A DNA stretch of 64,000 bases from Aeromonas rivuli (GTDB taxonomy: Bacteria > Pseudomonadota > Gammaproteobacteria > Enterobacterales > Aeromonadaceae): positions 1-64,000 of the forward strand of contig NZ_CDBJ01000032.1 of assembly GCF_000820045.1 (NCBI RefSeq), given 5' to 3'. Shown one piece after another: positions 33,922 through 53,217 of the stretch. Numbering within the stretch: position 1 is the stretch's first letter; every line of letters begins with the position of its first letter. The translations under genes and the position numbers were made by a program. Under the pieces are notes generated by a model. It ran no database searches. It saw only the letters and a list, made by a program, of their open reading frames with translations, and was not told the origin of the DNA.

Positions 33922-34013
33922 CTAACTGAGTCCCAACCTGTCGCACGGGGGTATTACCGGTCGGGGCAACTAGAGTAACATCTGACCCCAGTCCCCCTGT
34001 GCATGGAGCCGCC

Positions 34014-34865
34014 ATGGCCGATCTGCCCCCACCCAAGAAAGAGAGTGCCATCCTCAGCAGCCAGGAGCAGACCCTGCGCCTGGCCCGCAGCCGGGGCATA
34101 GACGGCATGCTGACCCGCAACACAGACAGCACCTTCGAGCAGAGGGCCAGTTTTCGCCAACTCGCGGATCAGGCGGCTCGCCAGCGCAATCTGGAAGCCA
34201 TCATGGTGATGGCGTCACGCCACTGCGAAGAAACCGCCGCCGGCGGCGAGATGGACAGCGACTGGCTGACCCGTTTCCTGCAACTGGCCGAGGACATCAG
34301 CATGGTGCCCATGCAGCAGTTGTGGGGCCGCATCTTCGCCATCGAGGTCGCCACACCGGGCCGCTTTTCAATACGTGCCCTGGCCACCCTCAAGGAGATG
34401 ACCCAGCGCGAGGCCATGCTGTTTCAGCGAGTCTGCGCGCTCTCCTGCCACTATGCGGGCAGCGATGAGCAGCGTCTGCTGCTGGGCCTTCACAAGGGCG
34501 CCAGCCTGCTCACCCGCGCCAAGGTGACCCGCCTTGGCCTTGGCAAATACCGGCTCCCCTATGGCGCCCTGTTGCAGCTCTTTGAACTCGGCCTGTTGCA
34601 CAGGGGGGAGCTGGAATCCGGCCCCCTGCCCGCCGACGGGGTGGAACTGGCGTTTGGCAACCAGCAGTGGCGCCTGCAACGTAAGCAGGCCAACATCACC
34701 CTGCTCTACTACCGCCTGACGCCTGTGGGCAATGAACTGGCCCAGCTGCTGACGGAAGCGCCGCTTGAGGAGTACCTGCAAGATCTGAAAACCGTGCTCG
34801 GTCAGGGGCTCACCATGGAGGTGAGCGTCACCACAGCCCCGACCCAGGAAAACGAAGGGGTCTGA
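34014..34865 (+). CDS. TIGR03899 family protein
   Basis: A 283-residue cytoplasmic protein of the TIGR03899/DUF2806 type, mostly helical, with a central conserved block WLTRFLQLAEDIS...LWGRIFAIEVATPGRFS (about 81-118). No biochemical role is known to me. The ATG at 34014 has GGAG six bases upstream; the frame is open to 33999. It stands alone between the zinc operon terminator and the repeat-flanked island. Confidence 0.75.
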   Translation: MADLPPPKKESAILSSQEQTLRLARSRGIDGMLTRNTDSTFEQRASFRQLADQAARQRNLEAIMVMASRHCEETAAGGEMDSDWLTRFLQLAEDISMVPMQQLWGRIFAIEVATPGRFSIRALATLKEMTQREAMLFQRVCALSCHYAGSDEQRLLLGLHKGASLLTRAKVTRLGLGKYRLPYGALLQLFELGLLHRGELESGPLPADGVELAFGNQQWRLQRKQANITLLYYRLTPVGNELAQLLTEAPLEEYLQDLKTVLGQGLTMEVSVTTAPTQENEGV

Positions 34866-35020
34866 TGGCCCCTTCTTAAGAGCTCGACCAAGCGCCTCGC
34901 CGCTTGCTGTGGCTGCGCTCAACATGGCGACGGCCCCGATGTCACCTCCCTGATTTCCCCCTGCTCTGATGCACGTTCAGTGTTGAGATGCCCCATCACC
35001 ACCCCGTTATGGATTACTTT
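34866..35020. other. Intergenic stretch before repeat A
   Basis: GC-rich, no ORF with a ribosome-binding site and no strong hairpin. It leads directly into repeat A copy 1 at 35021. Confidence 0.5.
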
Positions 35021-35184
35021 CTTGATCTTGCTCAGAAAGCTATCACCTCCTGCTTCCCTAACCAGCTCCGTTCGGTAACATGACCATCAGAGCCCCCTCT
35101 CGTCGGAGTCAACCATGAACCAGACCAGAGCCACACCACAGGGAAAGAGCAGCAAACTGGAGGCTGGAATTCAGGGGCGGTAGC
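35021..35184 (+). repeat. Dispersed repeat A, copy 1
   Basis: About 164 bases related to 50747-50913. Shared blocks are TTGATCxxGCxCAGAAA, ATCACC, CGTCGGAGTCAxCCATGA, and a well conserved 3' end (AGCAGC, CTGGA, GCTG, ATTCAGGGGCGGTAGC). Similarity stops after GGCGGTAGC. It sits on the left of the NACHT gene. Terminal inverted repeats and target-site duplications are not visible, so its type is unknown. Confidence 0.75.
35115..35183 (+). CDS. 22-codon ORF within repeat A copy 1
   Basis: ATG with GGAG six bases upstream and stop TAG at the repeat end. The product ends SSKLEAGIQGR. Copy 2 (50844-50912) has an ORF of the same length ending SSTLEADIQGR. The first eleven codons differ strongly while the last eleven are conserved, so the conserved part may be a DNA or RNA signal rather than a peptide. 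Confidence 0.35.
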   Translation: MNQTRATPQGKSSKLEAGIQGR

Positions 35185-35505
35185 GTGTTTCTTGCCGGTT
35201 GGTTCACAGCGCAGCGACGCCCAACAGACGAGCATGATCACGTCAACCAGAGCAGGATAAAGATGGATTGGGCCGAGCGATAAACACATTTTCCCATACA
35301 TTTCGCGGTAAACCTTGGACTTCACTTCGTTCAGCACCGACCTACGATGTTTAGCCCAACATACGAGATAAATTTTCTTATATGGAGTACGGTATTAACT
35401 ACTTAGCACACCCTCCATATGATGACTTAAATAGAAAACATTATTTTTCATTACATCACATATCATATTTATCTGAATTTTATCCTTAGCAACCCTTGGG
35501 GTACC
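35185..35505. other. Gap between repeat A and the NACHT gene
   Basis: The first half is GC-balanced, the second strongly AT-rich, so the composition boundary of the island lies near 35340. It holds two direct 14-base copies of GCCCAACAxACGAG (35219-35232, 35354-35367) and an inverted repeat ATATGGAG (35380-35387) / CTCCATAT (35413-35420). No gene is recognised. Confidence 0.5.
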
Positions 35506-37581
35506 ATGGAAACAACTAGCTTTATTTCTACAAAAGTGGCGACTAAATTATTAAAGGCTTTAACTAGCGTATTAAAAAACAACATTGACAATAGAAACAG
35601 CGAATTAATTAGAATTAATGATATTTTTGGCGATTGTCAAGAACTTGCTAAGTTTTATATTCAACCTGACTGTCAACAGGTTAACCCTGCAGATGAGCTT
35701 GAGGATGAAACCATATCATCAATAAGAGCTGGCATTTTTGAAACTATAAACAAATTTTTTAATCGAGATATATTAACTAGAGATGGCGCTAGTCAGATGT
35801 TTATCCTCGCTGATGCTGGTATGGGGAAAACGTCCTTGTTGATGATGATCAAGCTTAGCCATTTAATGGCTTTCTGGCCAAAAAGTTACCAATGTAAACT
35901 GCTTAAATTAGGAAGCACAACCTTAAGTGACATTAGTCAAATAGAAAACAAAACTCAAACTGTTCTCTTATTGGATTCGTTGGATGAAGATACTCAGTGC
36001 AAGCAAGGTGGTACAATTAATCGATTAACTAGGATACTTGAAGCAACTAGTTGTTTTTACCGTGTTATAATTACTTGCCGCACACAGTTTTTTCCTGAAA
36101 CGGCAGAATCTGCATTCAATACTATGGGTAAGATATCTTTCAATAATTATGATTGCCCGTTAGTTTATCTTTCTTTATTTACAGATGAACAGGTGGATGC
36201 ATATTTGGAAAAGCGTTACCCCAGAAATTTTAAATTCATATTTAATAAATTTAAAAACCCAAAATTACATGACGCCAAACAATCGATAAAAAATATAGGC
36301 TCACTTCAATTCAGACCTTTTTTATTGTCACATATAGAAACCTTGTTGGAAAGTCACCGACAGGGAGCAACCGAGTATGAATTATATAAAGGTTTAGTAG
36401 ACACATGGTTAAATCGTGAAGTCATCAAGTTAAGAACACATCACAATAAACGCCTTAATAAGGAGGACTTGCTTAAAGCTTGTGTCTGGTTAGCTGAAAC
36501 GATGCAGCGACAAGGCACTCATACCGTAGCTTTAAAGCATATCCAGCAATTATGTCATCGTGAATCTCATATTATTTTATTAAATGATCCAGCTGAGCGA
36601 GTCATTGAGGGGATCGACCATATAGATATTGGTACAAACTCACTACTAAATAGAAACTCATACGGTGAATTTAGATTTTCGCATTTAAGCATTAGAGAGT
36701 TTCTGATCGTTTATGGCGTTGAACTTGGTGTTCTTACCGATAAAGGAGACCCATTTAATAAGACTGACAATATTCTTAAATTCATTAAGACTGTAAATCA
36801 ATACAAAGTAGGATTATTCTTCAATGAAAAAAATGGATATTTATTAACAGGATTAAAGCTTTTAGATAACAATCAACTAACAAGCTTAAATTTAAAACAT
36901 GCATCTTTAGAATACAGTGATTTAAAGAAAGCATCATTTAATCATTTAAATTTGGAAGGAGCTAACCTTCAAGGGGCAAACTTGGATGAAGCCAACTTAA
37001 AAGGAGCAAATCTAAAAAGAGCTAATCTTCAAGGGGCAAGTTTGCGAGGGGCCAACTTGCAAGGTGCAAACTTAGATAAGGCAAATTTACAAGGTGCTTG
37101 TTTTAATGGCGCAATTCTTGATGATGCAAGTTTTAATAACGCTATCCTCATTGATGCACAATTAACAACCTTAACTCCAGCTATACATAACCAGAATAAT
37201 ACCAGCCTAAGGAATGTGAACTTCCAAATGGCAGACTTAAGTAAAGCAAACTTAGAGGGCTCCGATTTAACTGAAGCACATTTAACAGATGCCAAGCTTC
37301 ATAATTCACTACTTTCTCGAGCAAATTTAAGAAATGCTCGACTTAATGGCGCTGACTTTAAGGGCTCATTTTTCATTGAAGCCAACCTTGAGAATGCCGA
37401 CCTTACCCAATCAGATCTTGGGGGGGTTGATTTTACAAATGCAAATTTACAAGATGCCAAACTGACTGGTAGCGATCTAACTCAAGCTCGCTTGACTGGC
37501 TCTAATATAACTGATGGTCAACGAAATTCGGCAATTTTTAGAAAATATGAAAATGAAAAGAAACATGAAATAACGCTGTGA
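35506..37581 (+). CDS. NACHT-like STAND NTPase with pentapeptide repeats
   Basis: A 691-residue protein of strikingly low GC. Residues 1-98 are a helical N-terminal region with the linker YIQPDCQQVNPADE. The NTPase has Walker A ADAGMGKTSL (102-111), Walker B VLLLDSLDED (153-162) with the NACHT-type acidic ending, and an Arg-containing CRTQF (191-195). A winged-helix segment FRFSHLSIREFL (389-400) is typical of NACHT proteins. Residues about 460-668 are A(N/D)LxG pentapeptide repeats in two tracts, broken at about 553-570, which should form a right-handed beta-helix. Bacterial NACHT proteins of this layout (bNACHT) include antiphage defence proteins. No toxic N-terminal effector is recognisable. 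It is a single-gene cargo between repeats A and B. Confidence 0.88.
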   Translation: METTSFISTKVATKLLKALTSVLKNNIDNRNSELIRINDIFGDCQELAKFYIQPDCQQVNPADELEDETISSIRAGIFETINKFFNRDILTRDGASQMFILADAGMGKTSLLMMIKLSHLMAFWPKSYQCKLLKLGSTTLSDISQIENKTQTVLLLDSLDEDTQCKQGGTINRLTRILEATSCFYRVIITCRTQFFPETAESAFNTMGKISFNNYDCPLVYLSLFTDEQVDAYLEKRYPRNFKFIFNKFKNPKLHDAKQSIKNIGSLQFRPFLLSHIETLLESHRQGATEYELYKGLVDTWLNREVIKLRTHHNKRLNKEDLLKACVWLAETMQRQGTHTVALKHIQQLCHRESHIILLNDPAERVIEGIDHIDIGTNSLLNRNSYGEFRFSHLSIREFLIVYGVELGVLTDKGDPFNKTDNILKFIKTVNQYKVGLFFNEKNGYLLTGLKLLDNNQLTSLNLKHASLEYSDLKKASFNHLNLEGANLQGANLDEANLKGANLKRANLQGASLRGANLQGANLDKANLQGACFNGAILDDASFNNAILIDAQLTTLTPAIHNQNNTSLRNVNFQMADLSKANLEGSDLTEAHLTDAKLHNSLLSRANLRNARLNGADFKGSFFIEANLENADLTQSDLGGVDFTNANLQDAKLTGSDLTQARLTGSNITDGQRNSAIFRKYENEKKHEITL

Positions 37582-37869
37582 CAACTTTTTCTTTTTATTT
37601 TTCAGCCCGAAGGTTCGAATAGCACAGCGTATTCGGAAAATCGCGAATAACCCAGCCACAGCATAAGCAAGGATCGGAAGATCCCTTGCGGGGTTATATC
37701 GGCAGCCTCGAGATAGATCAAGACTCGCAGGCGGAGCGGGCAAAGATGGCCTGTGCCCTTGCTACCCACGCCTGCACTCTATTTGCTACTTACGGCTTGC
37801 TGCCAGAGTGATTACCCGGTTGCCGGGATAACAATCCGGCAGCATTTGTAAGACGGCGCAACTCCACAA
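37582..37869. other. Right flank of island 1
   Basis: Contains a T-rich tract after the NACHT gene (37586-37602), repeat B (37611-37688), then GC-rich DNA with a TGCCGG (37821-37826) / CCGGCA (37836-37841) hairpin beside the cysC stop. No gene is recognised. Confidence 0.5.
37611..37688 (+). repeat. Dispersed repeat B, copy 1
   Basis: About 78 bases, roughly 80 percent identical by eye to 53139-53217. Shared blocks include TCGAATAGC, CAGCGTATTC, ATAACCCAGCCAC and CATAAGCAAGGATCGG. It lies 29 bases after the NACHT gene stop. The GGTTCGAAT at its left end recalls a tRNA T-arm, but no tRNA can be folded around it. Confidence 0.75.
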
Positions 37870-38460
37870 CTACAGGTAGTTCCCCTGCCGCAGGGCGGTC
37901 AGCAACTCCTCCACCAGCACTTCCACCGGCTTGCCGGCGTTCAGTAGATGGATCTCCGGCTGCTCCGGTGCCTCGTAGGCGGAGTCGATACCGGTGAAAT
38001 TGCGAATTTCCCCGGCACGCGCCTTCTTGTAGAGCCCCTTGGGGTCGCGCTCTTCACACACACTAAGCGGCGCATCGACAAATACCTCGACAAACTCGTC
38101 GGCGCCGAGCAGATTGCGCACCAGCGCCCGCTCGGCCCGGAACGGTGAGATAAAGGCGGTGAGCACGATGAGGCCCGCATCCACCATGAGTTTCGCCACC
38201 TCGCCGACCCGGCGGATATTCTCCTGACGGGCGGCATCATCGAAACCAAGATCCCCACACAGGCCGTGGCGCACATTGTCCCCATCCAGCAGATAGGTGT
38301 GCTTGCCATCGGCGGCCAGCGCCTGTTCCAGGGCCCCCGCCAGGGTGGATTTTCCCGCCCCGGACAGGCCGGTAAACCAGATGACTTGCGGCTTTTGCCC
38401 CTTCAATTCAGAGCGGCTCTGCTTGCTGACGGCATGGTCGTGCCACACGATATTGCTCAT
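37870..38460 (-). CDS. cysC: CysC, adenylylsulfate kinase
   Basis: CysC phosphorylates APS to PAPS, the second activation step of sulfate assimilation. The 196-residue P-loop kinase has GLSGAGKST (about 31-39), DGDNVRHGL and the [10 protein letters not shown] and [14 protein letters not shown] blocks. AAGGAG precedes the ATG. It is the last gene of the cysG-cysD-cysN-permease-cysC set. Confidence 0.97.
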
Positions 38461-38621
38461 CTAAAACTCCTTGTTTGGCATTGACGCTGCCACGCTGAAA
38501 CTCTTCTGACTTCCCGCAACCAAGCCTCTGCCCATCAATGGGCGGCTTGCCGCTGCCCACTGCTGCGCATCTCAATGCCTTGCATCGCTTCCCATGATCC
38601 TGCCGGTATCACCCGCCCCCA

Positions 38622-40346
38622 TCAAAACGGAAACAGCAGGGGCACCATGATGATCACCCCGATGCTGTAGGCCAGGGAGACCGGCAGGGCCAGCTTGAGG
38701 TAGTCCGGCATCTTGTAGTTGCCCGCCGCATAGACCATCAGATTGGTCTGATAGCCATAGGGCAATATAAAGCTGGAACTGGCACCAAACAGCACCGCCA
38801 GGATGAACGGCATGGTGGAAACATCCATGCTGAGCGCCAGCTGATAGCCCATGGGGAAGGCCAGGGCAGCGGCGGCGTTGTTGCTCATCAACTCGGTCAG
38901 CACCAGAGTGAAGAAGTAGATGCCGATAAAGGCGATGATGGGGCTGACACCATTGAACTCCCCCATCAAGGCGTCGGCAATCAACTTGGCCAGACCACTG
39001 CTCTCCAGCTGATCGGCGATGGCGAGCGCGCCCCCCACCACCAGCCAGATATCCAGCGGAAAGCGGCGGCGGATCTCGTCCAGGGTCAGGATACGGGTGA
39101 ACAGCAGCGCCACCAGCATCAGCAACAGTCCCTTGAACAGGGGCACTAGATCCAGCACCGACAGCGCCAGCACTCCGAGAAAGCCCAGCACCACGGCGGC
39201 GCTGCGCTTGCCATCGAGCCGGGTGGAGGCTTCCAGTCCGCTCACCACCACAAACTCCCGGGAGAGGGACTTGTTGCTGGCAAACTTGGGGCCGGGGGCC
39301 AACAGCAGGGTATCGCCGGCATGCAATTCAATCTGGCCCAGACCGCCGGTGAGCTGAGTCTCGCCCCGGCGTACCGCCAGCACCACCGCATCGAAGTGGG
39401 TGCGAAACTCCGCATCCTTGATGGACTGCCCCACCAGCCGCGAGCTGTGGCTGACGATCACCTCCACCAGATGCTGGCCGTTGAGCCGGTGCTGGCCATA
39501 GAGTTCCAGCCCCTTGAGCTCTTGCAACACGCCGACGCTCTCCACGTCGCCGCAAAACAGCAACATGTCCCCCTCGTGCAGCTCGTGCTCCGGCTGCACC
39601 GGGCAGATCACCTGATCCCCGCGAATGATTTCGGCCAGATAGAGGCTCTTGAGGCTGCGCAGCCCATTCTCCTTGACGCTGCGCCCGGCCAGGGGCGAGC
39701 CTGCGCCCACCTTGGCCTCGAGAAAATAGCCAGATTCCCGGCTCATCTCGGTATCCTGCTCCGGCAGATAGCGGGCAAACAGCAGCACGGCGATAAGGCC
39801 GGTCAGCAGGGTCCCCGCTCCCACCATAAAGAAGTCGAACATGCCAAGGGGCTCGGCCCCCATCTTGATGAGGAAGCTGTTGACGATGAGGTTAGTGGAG
39901 GTGCCGATCAGGGTCAGTACGCCACCGAAGGTCGCCGCGAAGCACATCGGCAGCAGCAAGCGGGAGGGTGCATGGTTGGGATTGCGTTTGACCGCCCCCA
40001 GCATGGAGGCCACCACCGCCGTGTTGTTGACGAAGGCCGACAGGAAAGCCGTGGAGAACCACAGCTTCACCAGCACCTTGTTGAACGACCCCGTGCCCAC
40101 CAGATTGGCGAACCAGCTCATGACCCGGGTCTTCTCCACCGCGAGCGACACCAGCAGCAGCAACACCAGGGTCAGCAAGGCACTGTTGGTGTAACCCGCC
40201 ACCACGGCGTTGATGTCCGCCAGCCCGCTCAGATAGGTGATGAGCACGGCGCCCGAGAAGAGCAGCGCCGGGCGGAGTTTACCCTGGATCAACAGGACAA
40301 TGAGGGCAGCCAGCAGACCCAGCACCAGGGATTGTTGCCAGGTCAT
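38622..40346 (-). CDS. SLC13/DASS-type permease with TrkA-C domains, putative sulfate transporter
   Basis: A 574-residue protein with about ten or more membrane helices. Two RCK_C/TrkA-C regulatory domains lie in the middle (about 205-290 and 295-375), between two DASS halves carrying FVNNTAVVA, GTSTNLIVN and LMSNNAAAALAFP. This domain order is typical of bacterial sulfate or thiosulfate carriers of the SLC13 group. Its place between cysN and cysC suggests that it imports sulfate; no CysPTWA system is seen nearby. AAGGAG lies inside the end of cysN, four bases separating the genes. Confidence 0.9.
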   Translation of the reverse strand: MTWQQSLVLGLLAALIVLLIQGKLRPALLFSGAVLITYLSGLADINAVVAGYTNSALLTLVLLLLVSLAVEKTRVMSWFANLVGTGSFNKVLVKLWFSTAFLSAFVNNTAVVASMLGAVKRNPNHAPSRLLLPMCFAATFGGVLTLIGTSTNLIVNSFLIKMGAEPLGMFDFFMVGAGTLLTGLIAVLLFARYLPEQDTEMSRESGYFLEAKVGAGSPLAGRSVKENGLRSLKSLYLAEIIRGDQVICPVQPEHELHEGDMLLFCGDVESVGVLQELKGLELYGQHRLNGQHLVEVIVSHSSRLVGQSIKDAEFRTHFDAVVLAVRRGETQLTGGLGQIELHAGDTLLLAPGPKFASNKSLSREFVVVSGLEASTRLDGKRSAAVVLGFLGVLALSVLDLVPLFKGLLLMLVALLFTRILTLDEIRRRFPLDIWLVVGGALAIADQLESSGLAKLIADALMGEFNGVSPIIAFIGIYFFTLVLTELMSNNAAAALAFPMGYQLALSMDVSTMPFILAVLFGASSSFILPYGYQTNLMVYAAGNYKMPDYLKLALPVSLAYSIGVIIMVPLLFPF

Positions 40347-40350
40347 GGAC

Positions 40351-41772
40351 TTACTCCTTGCCGTTGGCGATGGTCAGCGCCTGCCAGTGCGGGAAGTGCT
40401 TGCGTACCAGGGCATTGAATTCAACTTCAAACTCGCTGTACTGGCCTGCCACCGCTTTTGCGGCCAGTCCTTCCACTATCATGCCTGCGCCGACGGTGAC
40501 GTTGGTCAACCGGTCAATGAGGATGAAGCTGCCGGTGTCGCGGATATCCGTGTAGGGGTCGAACGCCACCGGGTCGGTCAGGCTCAGCTCGCACAGGCCG
40601 ATCTCATTGAGCTTGAGCTCGGAAGCCGCCAGCTCGTCGAGCTTGTTGATCTCGATGCGGTGGCGCACGACCTCGACCTGACCCCGAGTCTTCTTGGTGG
40701 CCAGCTTGATGTCGTAGACCCGGCCCGGCTGCAGGGACTCCTCCCCCATCCAGACGATGTGGGCCAGCACGTTCTGGGTCACCCGGGGCTGCCTCGCGGC
40801 ATCCACCAGCAGGTCGCCGCGACTGATGTCTATTTCATCGGCAAAGGTGACTGTGATGGCCTGACCCGGCAGGGCATATTCCAGATCGCCGTCGAAGGTG
40901 ACGATGCGCTTCACAGTGCTCTGCTTGCCGGATGGCAACACCGCCAAGGTGTCGCCGACTCGCAGGATGCCGGAGGCCAGGGTACCCGCGAAGCCGCGAA
41001 AATCGAGGTTGGGACGGCTGACATACTGCACCGGCAGGCGCACCGGGTGGCGTTCCAGCTCGCGCTCCACCTCGGCGCTCTCCAGCAAGGAGAGCAGGGT
41101 CTCGCCCTGATACCAGGCCAGCTTGTCGCTCGCATTGACCACGTTGTCCCCGTCCAGGGCGGAGACCGGCACTAGCTGAATAGAATCCACAGCGAGCTTC
41201 TTGGCGAATTCGCGGTAATCGCTACTGATGCGATCGAACACCTCCTGGCTGAACTCCACCAGATCCATCTTGTTGACCGCCACCACGAACTGCTTGATGC
41301 CGAGCAGGCTGGCGATAAAGCTGTGGCGACGGGTCTGATCCAGCACCCCCTTGCGGGCGTCGATCAGGATGATGGCCAGATCGCAGGTGGAGGCACCGGT
41401 CGCCATGTTGCGGGTGTACTGCTCGTGGCCCGGGGTATCCGAGATGATGAACTTGCGCTTGGCGGTGGAGAAATAGCGATAGGCGACGTCTATGGTGATG
41501 CCCTGCTCGCGCTCCGCCTGCAAACCATCCACCAGCAGCGCCAGATCGAGTTTCTCGCCTGTGGTGCCGAGCTTCTGGCTGTCGGACTCCAGGGCTTTGA
41601 GCTGATCTTCATAGATCTGCTGGGAGTCATGCAGCAGGCGACCGATGAGGGTGCTCTTGCCGTCGTCCACGCTGCCGCAGGTGAGAAAGCGCAGCAGGCT
41701 CTTGTGTTGCTGGGCGTGCAAGTAGGCTTCAATGCCCTGTTCGCTGATGGCGGTCTGAATATGGTTGTTCAT
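40351..41772 (-). CDS. cysN: CysN, ATP sulfurylase GTPase subunit
   Basis: CysN is the regulatory GTPase that drives APS formation by CysD. The 473-residue elongation-factor-like protein has the P-loop [17 protein letters not shown] (about 34-50), the switch [18 protein letters not shown] and NKMDLV, followed by EF-Tu-like beta-barrel domains. No fused CysC kinase is present, in agreement with the separate cysC gene. It follows cysD by 11 bases. Confidence 0.97.
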
Positions 41773-41783
41773 GATGCGATTCC

Positions 41784-42692
41784 TTAGAAATATCCCTGAC
41801 GCTTCTTCTGCTCCATGGAGCCGGCCTGATCGTGGTCAATCAATCGTCCCTGCCGCTCGCTCGAGGTGGTGAGCAGCATCTCCTCGATGATCTCCGGCAA
41901 GGTGGTGGCATCGGACTCGATGGCACCGGTCAGCGGGTAGCAACCCAGGGTGCGGAAGCGCACCAGCTCCTGCTTCACCTCGTCATCCGGGCCTATGGGC
42001 ATGCGCTCGTCATCCACCATGATCTTGATGCCACTGCGCTCCACCACGGGGCGCATGGCGGCAAAGTAGAGCGGCACTATGTCGATGTTCTCGAGATAGA
42101 TGTATTGCCAGATGTCCAGCTCGGTCCAGTTGGAGAGCGGGAAGACCCGGATGCTCTCCCCCTTGTTGACCTGGCTGTTGTAGACCCGCCACAGCTCCGG
42201 CCGCTGGTTTTTCGGATCCCAGCGGTGGGACTTGTCACGGAAGGAGTAGACCCGCTCCTTGGCCCGGGATTTCTCTTCGTCCCGGCGCGCACCACCGAAG
42301 GCGGCATCGAAACCGTACTTGTTGAGCGCCTGCTTGAGCCCCTCGGTCTTCATGATGTCGGTGTGCTTGCCGCTGCCGTGCACGAAGGGGTTGATGTCCA
42401 TGGCCAGGCCATCCGGGTTCTTGTGGACGATGAGATCCAGCCCGTACTTCTTGGCGGTCTCGTCCCGGAACTTGATCATCTCCTTGAACTTCCAGTTGGT
42501 GTCCACGTGCAGCAAGGGGAAGGGGATCTTGCCCGGATAGAAGGCCTTGCGGGCCAGGTGCAGCATGACGGAGGAGTCCTTGCCGATGGAGTACATCATC
42601 ACCGGGTTTTCAAATTCGGCAGCCACCTCGCGGATGATATGGATGCTCTCGGCTTCCAGTTGCTGCAAATGAGTCAATCTTTCACGGTCCAT
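41784..42692 (-). CDS. cysD: CysD, ATP sulfurylase catalytic subunit
   Basis: CysD adenylates sulfate to APS. The 302-residue PP-loop ATPase shows [17 protein letters not shown] (about 36-52), the conserved [23 protein letters not shown] and [15 protein letters not shown] blocks. AGAGGA precedes the ATG. It starts the cysDN pair, 103 bases after cysG. Confidence 0.97.
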
Positions 42693-42795
42693 GTCGGGTC
42701 CTCTGGTCTGGCTAACGCGCTTGGTCAGAGCGCGGTTCGGGTTCAGTTCGATAAGGCTCGCGCCTCACCGGCAAATCAAATCGGGTCTGTCAGGG

Positions 42796-44235
42796 TCAGG
42801 CCAGGCTGACCAGTTTCAGATCGTTGCCACTTGGCTCATCGTTTGTCTCTGCACTTTTCTCACCACTTTTCTCGCCAAACCAGGCGAGTCGGTCGCGCAG
42901 TGACACCACCTCGCCGATGACGATGAGGGAGGGGCTTGCCGCCCGCTGAGCCAAGCAGGCCAACTCCCCCAGGGTGCCGGTCAACACCTTCTGCCGGGCC
43001 TGGGTGCCGCGCTCTATGATGGCGATCGGCGTCTGAGCCTTGCGGCCATGGTCAATCAGCTGCTGCTGAATGTGTTCGGAGCGCATCAGCCCCATGTAAA
43101 TCACCAGGGTCTGGTTGGTGGCCGCGAGCTGCTGCCAGTCGGGCTCCTGGCCCGCTTTCTGGCAGTGACCGGTGATGAAGACGGCGCTCTGGGCATGGTC
43201 GCGGTGAGTGAGCGGTATGCCCGCATAGGCGGTGGCGCCGGCGGCTGCCGTGATGCCGGGCACCACGGAGAAAGGGATCCCCTCGTCTGCCAGCACTTCC
43301 AGCTCCTCGCCGCCGCGACCGAACATGAAGGGATCGCCACCCTTGAGCCGCACCACCCGGTTGCCCGCCTTGGCGTATTGCACCAGCAGGCGATTGGTCT
43401 CCTCCTGGGGCACGCTGTGATCGCCCGCCTTCTTGCCCACCGAGATCAGGGTGGCATCACGGCGCACCAGATCCAGGATCTCGGGGGAGACCAGCTGGTC
43501 GTAGAGCACCACTTCCGCCTGCTGGATCTGCTGCAAGCCCTTGAGGGTGAGCAGGCCAGGATCGCCGGGGCCGGCACCGACCAGCACCACCTCGCCCAGC
43601 TCCCGCTGCGCCTTGTCCAGCCCCTCATTGAGCCAAGCCTCGGCACTTTGCCAATCCTGCTTCTCGATAAGCCCCGCCAGGGCATTGGAGGCGAAGGCCC
43701 GCTCCCAGAAGCGGCGGCGATCCGAGAGTGACCCAAGCAGCTGCTTGGCACGCTCACGCACTCGGCCAGAGAGCTCGGCCAAGCCACCCAGATGGCGGGG
43801 CAGCAGGCTCTCGAGCCGCTCGCGCAACAGACGCACCAGCACCGGGGCCTTGCCGCCGCTGGAGACGGCCACCATGATGGGAGACCTGTCTATGATGGAG
43901 GGGAAGATGAAGCTGGAGCGGGCGGGGTCATCGACCACATTGACGAACAGACCCAGCTCGGTGGCGCTCTCATAGACGAGGACGTTGACCTCGTTATCGT
44001 CGGTGGCGGCCACCACCAGCAGTTGCCCCGCAAGATGGGCGGGCTCAAACCGCACTGGCAGATGGTTGAAACGGCCCGCCAGTTCATCAAATTCAGTGGC
44101 GAGAAGAGGGGAAACCAGCGTCACTCTGGCACCCGCGGCCAGCAGCAGGCGCGCCTTGCGCAGGGCAACCTCGCCCCCACCCACCAGCAGTACCGGGCGG
44201 CCTTCCAACTTGGCAAACATAGGTAAGTAATCCAT
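42796..44235 (-). CDS. cysG: CysG, sirohaem synthase
   Basis: Trifunctional enzyme that methylates uroporphyrinogen III, oxidises precorrin-2 and inserts iron to give sirohaem, the cofactor of sulfite and nitrite reductases. The 479-residue protein has an N-terminal NAD-binding Met8p-like domain (VLLVGGGEVALRKARLLL, about 14-31). A C-terminal SAM methyltransferase follows (VLVGAGPGDPGLLTLKG, then VRLKGGDPFMFGRGGEE). It heads the sulfate-assimilation operon, which also uses the product of the haem pathway begun by HemL. Confidence 0.97.
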   Translation of the reverse strand: MDYLPMFAKLEGRPVLLVGGGEVALRKARLLLAAGARVTLVSPLLATEFDELAGRFNHLPVRFEPAHLAGQLLVVAATDDNEVNVLVYESATELGLFVNVVDDPARSSFIFPSIIDRSPIMVAVSSGGKAPVLVRLLRERLESLLPRHLGGLAELSGRVRERAKQLLGSLSDRRRFWERAFASNALAGLIEKQDWQSAEAWLNEGLDKAQRELGEVVLVGAGPGDPGLLTLKGLQQIQQAEVVLYDQLVSPEILDLVRRDATLISVGKKAGDHSVPQEETNRLLVQYAKAGNRVVRLKGGDPFMFGRGGEELEVLADEGIPFSVVPGITAAAGATAYAGIPLTHRDHAQSAVFITGHCQKAGQEPDWQQLAATNQTLVIYMGLMRSEHIQQQLIDHGRKAQTPIAIIERGTQARQKVLTGTLGELACLAQRAASPSLIVIGEVVSLRDRLAWFGEKSGEKSAETNDEPSGNDLKLVSLA

Positions 44236-50746: not shown

Positions 50747-50913
50747 TTTGATCCCGCCCAGAAATCCATCACCCTGCCCTTCCCCTCAGCGCCATACCCG
50801 CTAACATATCCGATTGGCAACATACGCCTCGTCGGAGTCACCCATGAGCCATGCCATCCCTCAAGCGCAGCCAAATAGCAGCACACTGGAAGCTGACATT
50901 CAGGGGCGGTAGC
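50747..50913 (+). repeat. Dispersed repeat A, copy 2
   Basis: About 167 bases related to 35021-35184 and in the same orientation. The most conserved part is the last ~40 bases, ending CAGGGGCGGTAGC. It lies left of the VOC gene and the second AT-rich island. Confidence 0.75.
50844..50912 (+). CDS. 22-codon ORF within repeat A copy 2
   Basis: ATG with GGAG six bases upstream; same length and same C-terminal pattern (SSTLEADIQGR) as the ORF at 35115-35183. Whether it is translated is unknown; only the 3' half is conserved between the copies. Confidence 0.35.
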   Translation: MSHAIPQAQPNSSTLEADIQGR

Positions 50914-50981
50914 TTGCCCAAAAGCGATAACCAGCAATCAAACCGGTTTCTTGTCCAAGAATTTCTGAGTGGAGGCTGTGC

Positions 50982-51410
50982 ATGGAAACGCAAACACTGC
51001 ATCGGGGTCGACTGATCGACCATCTCCAGCTGGTGGTGAAGGACCTGGCTGCCAGCCAGCGCTTTTACAGCGCCACGCTGGCCGCCCTCGATATTCCCAT
51101 AGGCGGCGCGGGTGAGGGCTATTTCTGGGCTGACGAGCTCTTTGTCACCTCAATCGACAGCCCGGCGGCGCTGGGGACACTGACCGGTCGCCATCATCTC
51201 GCCTTCCAGGCGCAAGACAGGGCCATGGTGGATCGCTTCTATCAGGCGGCCCTCGCCCACGGCGGCCAGGACAACGGCGCCCCCGGTGAGCGGGTCTATC
51301 ACCCCGGCTACTACGCCGCCTTTGTCCTCGATCCGGACGGCAATAATATCGAAGCCGTGTATCACGGCGAGGCAAAGCGCAGTGCGGAGTCGGTGGAAAT
51401 TCGGTTTTAG
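50982..51410 (+). CDS. VOC-family (glyoxalase/dioxygenase-like) protein
   Basis: A 142-residue vicinal-oxygen-chelate protein with IDHLQLVVKDLAASQRFY at the N-terminus and YYAAFVLDPDGNNIEAVYHG at the C-terminus, including His and Glu metal-ligand candidates. GGAGG precedes the ATG. It has the GC content of the core genome although it lies between repeat A and the AT-rich genes. The substrate is unknown. Confidence 0.88.
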   Translation: METQTLHRGRLIDHLQLVVKDLAASQRFYSATLAALDIPIGGAGEGYFWADELFVTSIDSPAALGTLTGRHHLAFQAQDRAMVDRFYQAALAHGGQDNGAPGERVYHPGYYAAFVLDPDGNNIEAVYHGEAKRSAESVEIRF

Positions 51411-51685
51411 AAATAAGGTGGAGCCCCGCAATGCACCTCGAGATGACTGCTTTTTGTTCAAAATGATAGCGTCGTAATTTTCTTATTAAATTTTGTACAG
51501 CGCTAAAATTTGAGCACGATACTGCAGCGAATACAGAAAGACTCCAGAGTCAAACCGGTAATATTATGATTATAAATAAGCTTCCCATAACACTGATAAG
51601 GTGGGCGGTGTTATATGGAAGACCAGATTGTCCGATTAGTACCTTTTATATCTAGTCAATATTATGCATACAATGAGGAATATTC
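51411..51685. other. AT-rich gap at the left edge of island 2
   Basis: Composition drops sharply after about 51470. It holds an inverted repeat ATAACAC (51587-51593) / GTGTTAT (51608-51614) that may be an operator or small hairpin. No gene is seen. Confidence 0.45.
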
Positions 51686-52024
51686 ATGACAAAGAAAAAC
51701 GTAAAAAAAGAATTAGAAATCCTAAAGAGCGATTTTTCTGAACTAATGGATTTATTTGATAACTCACATGAAAATTTATCTTTGATATCTAAAAGGTATT
51801 CTGAGATCAAAGTACAGGTAAATGAGAGACTGAATTTTCTGGAAAAAGAATATAAAGCTAATAAATTAAATGAAATTGAGCTCTGTTTTTTACTGCCAGC
51901 TATCAGAGAGGTCAGTCTGCACTGTACAGCTAAAATTGACTCAAAAAACATTGAACAGTTGAGCGCTTCTATTTATGACGGTGAAGACTATTCTTCTTAC
52001 TGGCTGACTGCGCTAGATGCATAA
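51686..52024 (+). CDS. Island 2 small protein, unknown
   Basis: A 112-residue, AT-rich-coded protein that is mainly helical, probably a coiled coil in its first 70 residues (Lys/Glu/Leu heptads), with a single Cys near residue 91. GAGGAA lies seven bases before the ATG. No family is recognised. Confidence 0.55.
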   Translation: MTKKNVKKELEILKSDFSELMDLFDNSHENLSLISKRYSEIKVQVNERLNFLEKEYKANKLNEIELCFLLPAIREVSLHCTAKIDSKNIEQLSASIYDGEDYSSYWLTALDA

Positions 52025-52174
52025 AAAATATGAAAAACTATCAACATTCTGCACTTATAGGCCCTTTGAACCACAATGGTTACGACAGTTGTATTTAGTG
52101 TCAGTGCGTTATCAGTCACTTAAGCGGGCATTATTTTAAATACAAGTAACAAATAATTAGTATGGAGACATGCA

Positions 52175-52522
52175 ATGAAATATGAGGAAATTGCTAAAAA
52201 ATGCGAAGGACTTAGCTACCGAGATAAATTTAGGCTTGCCCAACTTCTAATTCAACTAGCAAGAAAGCAAGAAGAAGAGGAGTATCCTGTACAAAGGAAG
52301 CATGAAGAACCAGGCAACGATGTAAACAACATAACCTATGTCGCTGAACGTCTGCTGAAGCTAAAGCCGGCAAAGAAAAGCACCCTCCTCAACTCCATCG
52401 GCGCAATGTTTCAATTCCAAGGAGGAATCTCTGATGCAGATAAAGAGAAAATTGCTATAGAACTCCAAAATAAAAATATAATTAGTATCACCGAAACAGG
52501 CAGGGTTTCGTACCCAGATTAA
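52175..52522 (+). CDS. Island 2 small protein, unknown
   Basis: A 115-residue protein with an N-terminal helical motif LSYRDKFRLAQLLIQLARKQEEEE and a C-terminal domain (about 60-115) with a pattern VAERLLKLKPAKKSTLLNSI...GGISDADKEKI, possibly a small winged-helix fold. GGAG precedes the ATG. I recall similar N-termini in accessory regions of Vibrio but cannot name a family. Confidence 0.6.
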   Translation: MKYEEIAKKCEGLSYRDKFRLAQLLIQLARKQEEEEYPVQRKHEEPGNDVNNITYVAERLLKLKPAKKSTLLNSIGAMFQFQGGISDADKEKIAIELQNKNIISITETGRVSYPD

Positions 52523-52625
52523 TGTACAAAAATCACCCTAACAATTGGTTCAAACCATTTCAGTGCTCACTGTGACATTGAAATTGCGGCTAGTTCTCTA
52601 TCTAATTAACGCAATATTATTCATA

Positions 52626-53150
52626 ATGAAGGAATTTGAACCTGTGCCAAAAATCACCGAAATGAAAGAAGCCGCGCGAGAATTTAGAAATTTACTTGAT
52701 AGGTGTGACAAGAGAAGTACGAAGCTGCTAATTGAGTGTTTTCCAATTATGAGTTGTAAGTTATCTTCTATGCTTTTGTCCTATCACTTTCTTATGTTAT
52801 GGCCAGACCTTGAGATAAAAGGTATAAGTGCAGCTACAGGGAGAAAAAACGATATAACTCATTACTGGCTAGAGATCAATGATATTGCAATTGACATAAC
52901 TGGAGACCAATACAACATTATTAGTGACATCGAATTAAATGAAAAAATTATAATGAACCGACCATTTGAGGCTGTTCACGTTTCAAATAAAAACAAAAGC
53001 TACCTATACAAACTATTCAAGGTCATAGAAAGTGAACCTCTCATATATGGATTTCCTACAATTGCGGAAGATTTTATTGAAGACATGGAACTGAGTTACA
53101 GTCAGATCACTCACAAATCTGGGTACTACGTAACTCGTAGGCTCGAATAG
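52626..53150 (+). CDS. Papain/transglutaminase-fold-like protein of island 2
   Basis: A 174-residue protein, low GC. The order Cys44 (IMSCKLSS, start of a helix), His79 (ITHYWLEIND) and Asp90/Asp94 (IAIDITGDQY) with the HxWLE...DIT pattern resembles papain-like or transglutaminase-like cysteine proteins, but this is by pattern only. The ATG at 52626 has no clear ribosome-binding site; the frame extends upstream to a TTG at 52545. Its stop codon TAG is supplied by repeat B. Confidence 0.6.
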   Translation: MKEFEPVPKITEMKEAAREFRNLLDRCDKRSTKLLIECFPIMSCKLSSMLLSYHFLMLWPDLEIKGISAATGRKNDITHYWLEINDIAIDITGDQYNIISDIELNEKIIMNRPFEAVHVSNKNKSYLYKLFKVIESEPLIYGFPTIAEDFIEDMELSYSQITHKSGYYVTRRLE

Positions 53151-53217
53151 CTCAGCGTATTCAAACCATCGTCTATAACCCAGCCACGACATAAGCAAGG
53201 ATCGGGAAATCCCCTTG
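53139..53217 (+). repeat. Dispersed repeat B, copy 2
   Basis: About 78 bases matching 37611-37688 in the same orientation (GCTCGAATAGC, CAGCGTATTC, ATAACCCAGCCAC, CATAAGCAAGGATCGG). It overlaps the last codons of the preceding gene and marks the right edge of the AT-rich island; GC-rich DNA resumes at once. Confidence 0.75.

Follow-up and report, generated by a model that had tools for sequence, protein, structure and literature searches.

The window analysed here, the first 64,000 nucleotides of contig NZ_CDBJ01000032.1 of Aeromonas rivuli (assembly GCF_000820045.1; 4.53 Mb in 102 contigs), contains an intact open reading frame (ORF) at positions 35506-37581 of the + strand, which starts with ATG and encodes 691 amino acids. 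A sequence-only reading of this stretch had presented the product as a NACHT-type nucleoside triphosphatase (NTPase) fused to pentapeptide repeats and the gene as a candidate for phage defence. The subject of this text is the gene, its relatives and the slot that it occupies between a DUF2806 gene and cysC, behind a JUMPstart RNA element.

The gene and its protein

The gene and the parts of its product lie as follows in the window (dN/dS, ratio of nonsynonymous to synonymous substitution rates):

35506-37581, + strand: STAND NTPase-pentapeptide gene, 691 amino acids (ORF with ATG start, family matches, orthologues, dN/dS)
35506-35790, + strand: conserved N-terminal segment, residues 1-95, putative effector (profile scan, dN/dS, helix prediction)
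35809-35832, + strand: Walker A motif, residues 102-109, including Lys108 (sequence; alignment of five relatives)
35965-35991, + strand: Walker B motif LLLDSLDED, residues 154-162 (alignment of five relatives)
36670-36705, + strand: winged-helix-type motif FRFSHLSIREFL, residues 389-400 (alignment of five relatives)
36886-37545, + strand: pentapeptide right-handed beta-helix, residues 461-680, putative sensor (PF00805, predicted fold, Foldseek)

The ORF and its motifs are located where the sequence-only reading had placed them. Walker A reads A102-D-A-G-M-G-K108-T109, and A102, D103, G105, M106, G107, K108 and T109 are invariant in 5/5 aligned relatives, one of which has only about 31% identity. 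The same relatives preserve every position of Walker B except 158, as well as F391, H393, S395, I396, E398, F399 and L400 of the FRFSHLSIREFL motif. A P-loop and a STAND-type Walker B are thus found in a single domain, a combination expected of the STAND superfamily, and they are followed by the winged-helix-type motif at 389-400 and by the beta-helix. NACHT-type Walker B motifs carry a small residue after the aspartate, and this is the case both here and in a distant plasmid relative (LLLDALDED in L010).

At the level of profiles, the NACHT assignment did not hold: PF05729 reaches 14.0 bits against a cut-off of 26.7 (E = 0.046), which comes close to no NACHT hit at all. The best STAND profile in Pfam is nSTAND3 (E = 3.3e-5, 24.1 bits, under its cut-off of 27.2), and the match to the NCBIfam model of the antiphage NACHT protein EruA (NF058535) is restricted to residues 98-249 (28.3 bits, cut-off 1000, E = 4.7e-7). 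By profile the protein thus barely qualifies as a STAND member, and it is filed as a STAND-type NTPase and not as a NACHT protein. Its motifs and matches indicate a STAND-type NTPase joined to a HetL-like pentapeptide beta-helix, to which the name NACHT applies at the motif level only.

The C-terminal half of the earlier description fared better. PF00805 recognises seven stretches over residues ~461-680 (178.9 bits against a cut-off of 20.2, E = 9.5e-54), in agreement with the approximately 200 residues of repeats that had been noticed. A fold predicted from the single sequence was rejected (mean predicted local distance difference test score, pLDDT, of 40); one based on three orthologues was used for the beta-helix only, where 10-residue mean pLDDT values are 71-95 between residues 481 and 670, except for a loop region at 551-570 (57-66). 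In a Foldseek comparison, designed pentapeptide solenoids came first by E-value and HetL (3du1) ranked fourth, with the best fit among the matches listed (template modelling score by target 0.81, root-mean-square deviation 1.2), so that HetL is the best structural match among natural proteins. The resemblance to HetL and other pentapeptide-repeat proteins concerns the C-terminal part, as HetL consists of the beta-helix by itself (237 residues in the structure), whereas here an NTPase precedes it in the same chain. The structural check that the earlier reading had called for therefore supports the beta-helix fold and the PF00805 match, but the NACHT cut-off was missed and the NTPase half stays below a pLDDT of 50 in the three-sequence fold. 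Pentapeptide repeats are described as modules of predicted bacterial conflict systems (PMC7159879, PMC10853773).

The three orthologues (691, 691 and 689 amino acids; 74, 81 and 80% identity over the whole protein) allowed selection to be estimated by the Nei-Gojobori method (NG86) on four sequences, with dS obtained for 4/6 pairs per region and several dS values near or beyond saturation. Under these conditions, dN/dS is 0.06-0.07 for residues 1-95, 0.02-0.05 for residues 96-450 and 0.11-0.22 for residues 451-680. These ratios point to purifying selection on the NTPase half and, together with the conserved length of the orthologues, show that the ORF is a real gene and more than a product of chance. 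In the first half of the beta-helix, 27/33 inward positions are invariant and only 13/48 outward ones, a pattern that agrees with a scaffold kept constant under a varying surface, as would be expected for a sensor.

Distribution and mobility of the gene

The gene has a GC (guanine plus cytosine) content of 33-37% in surroundings of ~60%, the contrast that had first marked it as AT-rich. Among 100 related genomes it was found only in the window's own (1/37 within the genus), which excludes a wide presence as a core gene. The 394 genomes examined in the order yielded one further close copy (G392, 89%), and a pattern-seeded search, which detects close relatives only, gave a single locus among 84,980 species, each represented by one genome (Paraglaciecola chathamensis, 83%). 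There was one match in IMG/VR (88%) and none in the phage records; plasmids provided one distant relative (L010, ~31% identity), and no DNA-level match was found in E. coli genomes. Two order-level matches (L007, 29%; L008, 28%) were dropped as weak, covering residues 33-126 and having internal stops. A class-level profile scan gave 7/369 genomes, the window's own included; the rest were weak and left out of the family.

The context of these copies differs from one to the next. The Paraglaciecola gene is framed exactly by two attC-type hairpins (L004, 7839-7910 and 10134-10225), of which the downstream one has a folding z of -3.49 (0/200 shuffles fold as well) and the upstream one a z of -1.49 (13/200), and the genome has an integron integrase above the cut-off on another contig; this copy is thus bounded by attC sites in the manner of an integron cassette. 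In G392, the start codon is preceded, at a distance of 57 bases, by the end of a full-length attC resembling the Vibrio cholerae repeat (VCR), of which a partial copy is present on the downstream side. That genome has 17 matches to the VCR-like repeat, some of them partial, and an intI of 449 bits ~380 kb away from the gene; from its two replicons and VCR-like repeats, we infer that it is Vibrio-like. The folding of the four attC candidates is mixed (z of -3.49, -1.49, -0.11 and 0.44), the two Vibrio-like sites being based on repeat identity and not on folding. The attC scan gave 3 sites in L004 (7 kb) and 4 in L009 (10.9 kb), and each of three shuffled L004 sequences also gave 1, though weaker; because of these controls, only the two strong Paraglaciecola sites were used.

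Defence cassettes are known from the integrons of Vibrio and from mobile integrons (Darracq 2025, Kieffer 2025, as reported in PMC12409362). The Paraglaciecola copy between two attC sites and the G392 copy beside one, with intI in the genome, resemble them; the window differs, with 0 attC-like sites at the gene (34851-37900) and a JUMPstart leader in their place.

On the IMG/VR contig, its neighbours are a tyrosine integrase on one side and an FtsZ-like gene on the other, and genes resembling HipA/HipB and RloAB occur no more than 6 kb away (names assigned by reading throughout). On a Paraburkholderia plasmid, the distant relative (L010, 7776-9812) comes after a BREX-1 operon (DUF1819, DUF1788, brxC, pglX, pglZ, brxL), from which a single small gene separates it. 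The C-terminal part of this relative is not made of pentapeptides, which corresponds to the STAND pattern of a constant NTPase with varying sensors. The start annotated for L010 possibly leaves out a transmembrane helix at the N-terminus. Composition, patchy occurrence and the integron-cassette and integrase-neighbour orthologues indicate that the gene is foreign, rare and mobile across unrelated elements.

A slot with changing cargo behind a JUMPstart leader

The gene occupies a slot with the following features (REP, repetitive extragenic palindromic; ops, operon polarity suppressor):

33999-34865, + strand: DUF2806 gene, left flank, in 37/37 genus genomes
35018-35187, + strand: leader upstream of and including JUMPstart, recurrent in the genus (genus comparison)
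35150-35187, + strand: JUMPstart RNA (RF01707, 53.4 bits, cut-off 35), with ops core GGCGGTAGCGT at 35176-35186, a site of RfaH recruitment judging from its family
35296-35369: REP-like palindromic repeat, left slot edge, in 10/20 slots compared first
37602-37735: right module, a dispersed repeat with a CGAATA...TATTCG palindrome, in 13/20 slots compared first
37870-38460, - strand: cysC (adenylylsulfate kinase), right flank, long match in 36/37 genomes, named by reading and by its neighbours

Both flanks were found on one contig in 27 of the genus genomes other than the window's, and these 27 intervals are the slots considered below. Among the 9 other genomes, 8 have the flanks on different contigs and one (G005) has no cysC match beyond short ones. 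The gene cysC adjoins cysN/cysD/cysG-type genes. The STAND gene is absent from all 27 intervals, each of which holds other ORFs with a GC content of 0.50 or less. This cargo is mostly AT-rich (only mildly in slot L072, 0.47-0.50) and is shared between some slots (L073 with L077, L087 with L089). Selecting ORFs with a GC content of at most 0.50 and 110 amino acids or more gave 70 cargo ORFs, 64 of them on the strand that runs from DUF2806 to cysC.

The cargo is rich in defence-type proteins. With the window protein included, the 70 ORFs give matches at E<=1e-4 to 345 PADLOC families, the best of the 25 shown having an E of 1e-186. For 51 control proteins of the window, mostly housekeeping by reading, the number of families is 16 (best 5.5e-45), with mad3, mad8 and AriA at the top; these figures count families, cross-hits between related models included, and are not numbers of matching proteins. 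Matches in PADLOC, NCBIfam or Pfam include HamB, PtuA/PtuB, DRT, viperin, SIR2, AIPR and DUF4062. When one protein was taken from each of 13 slots, with a choice biased towards likely positives (6 searched in PADLOC at 1e-10, 7 in Pfam at 1e-5), clear or suggestive matches were obtained in 10/13: Hachiman HamB (slot L093), a UG17 defence reverse transcriptase (L085), viperin (L088), a SIR2/ThsA-like protein (L092), an AriA/PtuA-type ATPase (L083), AIPR (L079), FRG (L086), DUF4062 (L090), AlbA/Schlafen (L094) and AAA_15 (L096). AAA_15, FRG and AlbA are associated with defence, which is not proof of such a role. The single proteins of L077, L080 and L087 had no match at these limits. DUF4062 has been reported as an antiphage NADase, Swarozyc (PMC13174449). 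Conserved flanks, varying cargo in 27/27 slots and an enrichment in defence families relative to the controls characterise this place as a defence hot spot. Core hotspots of Pseudomonas aeruginosa and E. coli also combine conserved sites with interchangeable defence cargo, and no RfaH leader shared by dispersed sites is mentioned in the accessible parts of these descriptions (PMC10250203, PMC10121019).

The JUMPstart leader, which like the hot spot is an addition to the sequence-only reading, ends 318 nucleotides before the start codon of the STAND gene, with no + strand ORF of 60 amino acids between. Across the genus, JUMPstart reaches the gathering score in 25/27 slots (27 elements, all on the DUF2806-to-cysC strand), the two slots where it does not being L075 and L096. 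The exact ops 11-mer occurs on the + strand of 24/27 slots, late in the interval in L096, and on the - strand of 0/27; 200 shuffled versions of the 8-mer were found in 0.68 loci on average and 16 at most. In the equivalent interval of an A. caviae record (NZ_AP026896.1, L144) there are two JUMPstart elements on the same strand. The gene of RfaH (TIGR01955) is above the cut-off in 36/37 genomes, the exception being 80% complete. The STAND gene thus has a JUMPstart upstream on its own strand in a genome that contains RfaH, as would be expected of an RfaH regulon member. Since a sigma-70 scan gave 10 sites where 7.7 were expected, and no terminator was found, no promoter is proposed. In E. coli, the loading of RfaH at ops allows RNA polymerase to traverse acquired operons bound by H-NS (PMC9765446); by analogy, we infer the same action at the Aeromonas slots. 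The likeness extends to the place of ops, which lies there in the 5' leader of genes that H-NS binds and that are often acquired, and to the presence of an RfaH gene. The regulon described there comprises 8 operons in CFT073 (cell envelope, type VI secretion system, haemolysin, capsule; PMC9765446), whereas the slots here hold one to few genes and much defence-type cargo.

JUMPstart elements are not limited to this place, as each of the 37 genomes has 3-14 matches (E<=0.001, under stricter search filters). From the matches listed in eight genomes, 20 further loci were fetched, leaving out one above the cut-off (G033) and one below it (in the window's own genome). Two of these loci (L105, L111) head O-antigen-type genes by reading, and 18/20 head stretches with lower-GC ORFs; with the same limits and either strand allowed, 33/33 cargo ORFs lie on the JUMPstart strand. 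PADLOC recognises a type II-A retron reverse transcriptase behind JUMPstart in L116 and a Hachiman helicase in L121, and matches to SIR2, OLD-like TOPRIM, Fic, a STAND-type ATPase, RelA/SpoT and MerR were obtained within this cargo without assignment to a locus. Examined singly, 2/4 proteins match PADLOC at 1e-10 and 0/3 match Pfam at 1e-5. Another JUMPstart slot of the window's own genome (L104) has an ORF of 489 amino acids whose residues 330-467 weakly match an AAA/STAND-type ATPase (26.2 bits, under the cut-off of 33.2), perhaps another NLR-like protein (NLR, nucleotide-binding leucine-rich repeat receptor) judging from its sequence. The window itself has a second JUMPstart-led, AT-rich slot:

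50879-53213, + strand: second slot, with a copy of the right module at 53136-53213

It contains a glyoxalase-like gene (by reading) followed by an AT-rich run of short + strand ORFs, and one weak attC-like hairpin. The right module was considered and rejected as a general slot feature: of 21 other JUMPstart loci, counting the second slot of the window, 2 (L122, W50) have it downstream of JUMPstart and 1 (L114) upstream.

Some observations concern how the cargo may move. Slots L075 (1134-2084) and L087 (2837-3787, both oriented) encode nearly identical proteins of 316 amino acids, by reading REP-associated (Y1-type) transposases, and cargo may be mobilised by REP elements together with such a transposase, a possible link to the REP-like slot edges. 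In L074 (~2930-2990), a VCR-like attC (by reading) stands directly before a copy of the right module, which suggests that integron-derived cargo has entered the slot. That the slot edges are attC sites was not supported for the window, where the scan at the gene gave none, and insertion into a tRNA gene was rejected too, there being no tRNA in the window. L094 contains a TwoAYGGAY RNA match at 1113-1194 (47.3 bits, cut-off 43). The A. caviae record matches window positions 38000-44000 over 98% of their length with 89% identity, and its DUF2806 gene at 84.5%. It is filed as a plasmid in PLSDB; at 4.94 Mb and with a match to the window's cys region, it is evidently a chromosome of A. caviae, and by reading there are several transposase-like genes in its slot.

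A probable antiphage receptor and competing explanations

Taken together, these results make it probable that the gene encodes a horizontally acquired, single-gene, NLR-like antiphage receptor placed in a slot under presumed RfaH control. The antiphage role that the earlier reading had put forward is made likely by association (slot cargo, BREX-1 neighbour, integron cassette), but no PADLOC profile matches the protein and the NACHT cut-off is missed. According to the scenario that we favor, RNA polymerase would pause at ops, and RfaH would load and keep transcription going across the gene, which is AT-rich and probably silenced by H-NS. The protein would wait in an ADP-bound state until a phage component or a disturbed host process bound the variable face of the beta-helix; the NTPase would then exchange its nucleotide and oligomerise, and the clustered N-terminal helices would act, most likely on the membrane, arresting the infected cell. 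The last step is tentative. A cationic amphipathic helix is predicted at about residues 8-25 (charge +4, moment 0.56), the best N-terminal amphipathic windows of the orthologues have moments of 0.60-0.62, and L010 has a transmembrane helix near its N-terminus when its frame is read from an upstream ATG. Because these two features occur at the same end, a membrane-acting effector can be guessed at, with less than even confidence. The closest known systems are bNACHT and NLR-related antiphage proteins such as bNACHT25 (PMC12169576) and EruA (NF058535), which as far as described are likewise single genes of mobile distribution, with a central STAND P-loop, a D-x-x-DE Walker B and a C-terminal sensor (putative here). 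The window protein differs from them by the missed NACHT and EruA cut-offs, by its pentapeptide beta-helix in the place of the sensor and by having no recognised N-terminal enzyme.

Several results weigh against this interpretation. Besides the missed NACHT profile and the low pLDDT of the NTPase half, the PADLOC scan of the 691-residue protein gave 0 families at E<=1, a PDB profile search with the NTPase half gave no significant relative (best E 0.084), and residues 1-95 had no family match in the profile scans, the helix at 8-25 being only the third-ranked window among residues 1-450. The case for a sensor is also two-sided: the divergence of the beta-helix is faster and biased towards its surface, in line with the sensor role of the earlier reading, but relaxed constraint rather than an arms race may also account for such divergence; no pair estimated has a dN/dS >1, and in the second half of the helix the contrast is weaker (24/39 inward and 21/60 outward positions invariant). 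The slots, finally, are not devoted to defence alone. 8/20 slot proteins examined singly had no match at the limits used, 5/70 cargo ORFs are EstD-like hydrolases, slot L096 has a PAAR gene (by reading), and MerR-type regulators lie behind another JUMPstart. By reading, the EstD-like hydrolase recurs in L078, L082, L083, L098 and one more slot; the slot cargo also includes two SnoaL-like ORFs.

Some of these points could be explained if the protein were a regulator of the STAND type that acts on a host process, be it stress signalling, transcription or the control of the envelope, and that is carried by mobile elements and has no antiphage role. Non-immune STAND regulators such as MalT do exist, the slots also hold EstD-like hydrolases and other genes unrelated to defence, and no defence profile matches the protein. 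This explanation is nevertheless unlikely in view of the patchy occurrence of the gene (1/37 in the genus), the lack of a shared partner gene around the window copy and the three orthologues (by reading), the BREX-1 neighbour of the relative and the frequency of defence genes among the recognisable cargo. If the gene were a passenger of integrons and islands, selfish or decaying and under no selection for a function in the host, this would account for the spread over an integron, an integrase-bearing element and a slot and for the single copy in one genus genome; such an explanation is decidedly less probable still, given the intact frames of 689-691 codons, the dN/dS of 0.02-0.07 for residues 1-450 in the pairs that allowed a dS estimate, and the position of the gene behind a JUMPstart leader. 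The least probable explanation is a nucleotide-gated DNA mimic, whose beta-helix would act on gyrase like Qnr or MfpA and whose NTPase would control release: the fold is common to both and the repeats give partial NCBIfam Qnr matches, but the cut-offs are far off (Qnr 59.8 against 240 bits, MfpA 62.7 against 360), the helix is nearly neutral (24 D/E and 21 K/R), unlike an acidic DNA-mimic surface, and its best natural structural match is HetL and not Qnr.

If the receptor interpretation is retained, the slots can be seen in a wider context. The balance tips slightly towards a dispersed defence repertoire in Aeromonas, distributed over sockets of one to few genes with RfaH as a common on-switch for silenced, AT-rich immune genes; the STAND-pentapeptide receptor would be one such insert, moving between integron cassettes and RfaH sockets. 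In the literature covered, with subscription papers largely outside, we found none on RfaH- or JUMPstart-led defence slots and no tested STAND-pentapeptide defence gene. The part that a specialist would not expect is the presence of RfaH-type leaders before interchangeable, often defence-type cargo across the genus. Were this confirmed, RfaH, known as a specialised transcription factor of envelope and virulence operons, would at the same time govern dispersed antiphage genes as a master switch, in a genus that matters for aquaculture and waterborne infection, and it would tie immunity to the expression of surface polysaccharides. JUMPstart would in addition be a practical marker for unknown Aeromonas defence genes, as several slots hold ORFs that match no family. 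The pentapeptide beta-helix, for its part, would join the known sensors of STAND immunity, on an NTPase that has a different C-terminus in its relative.

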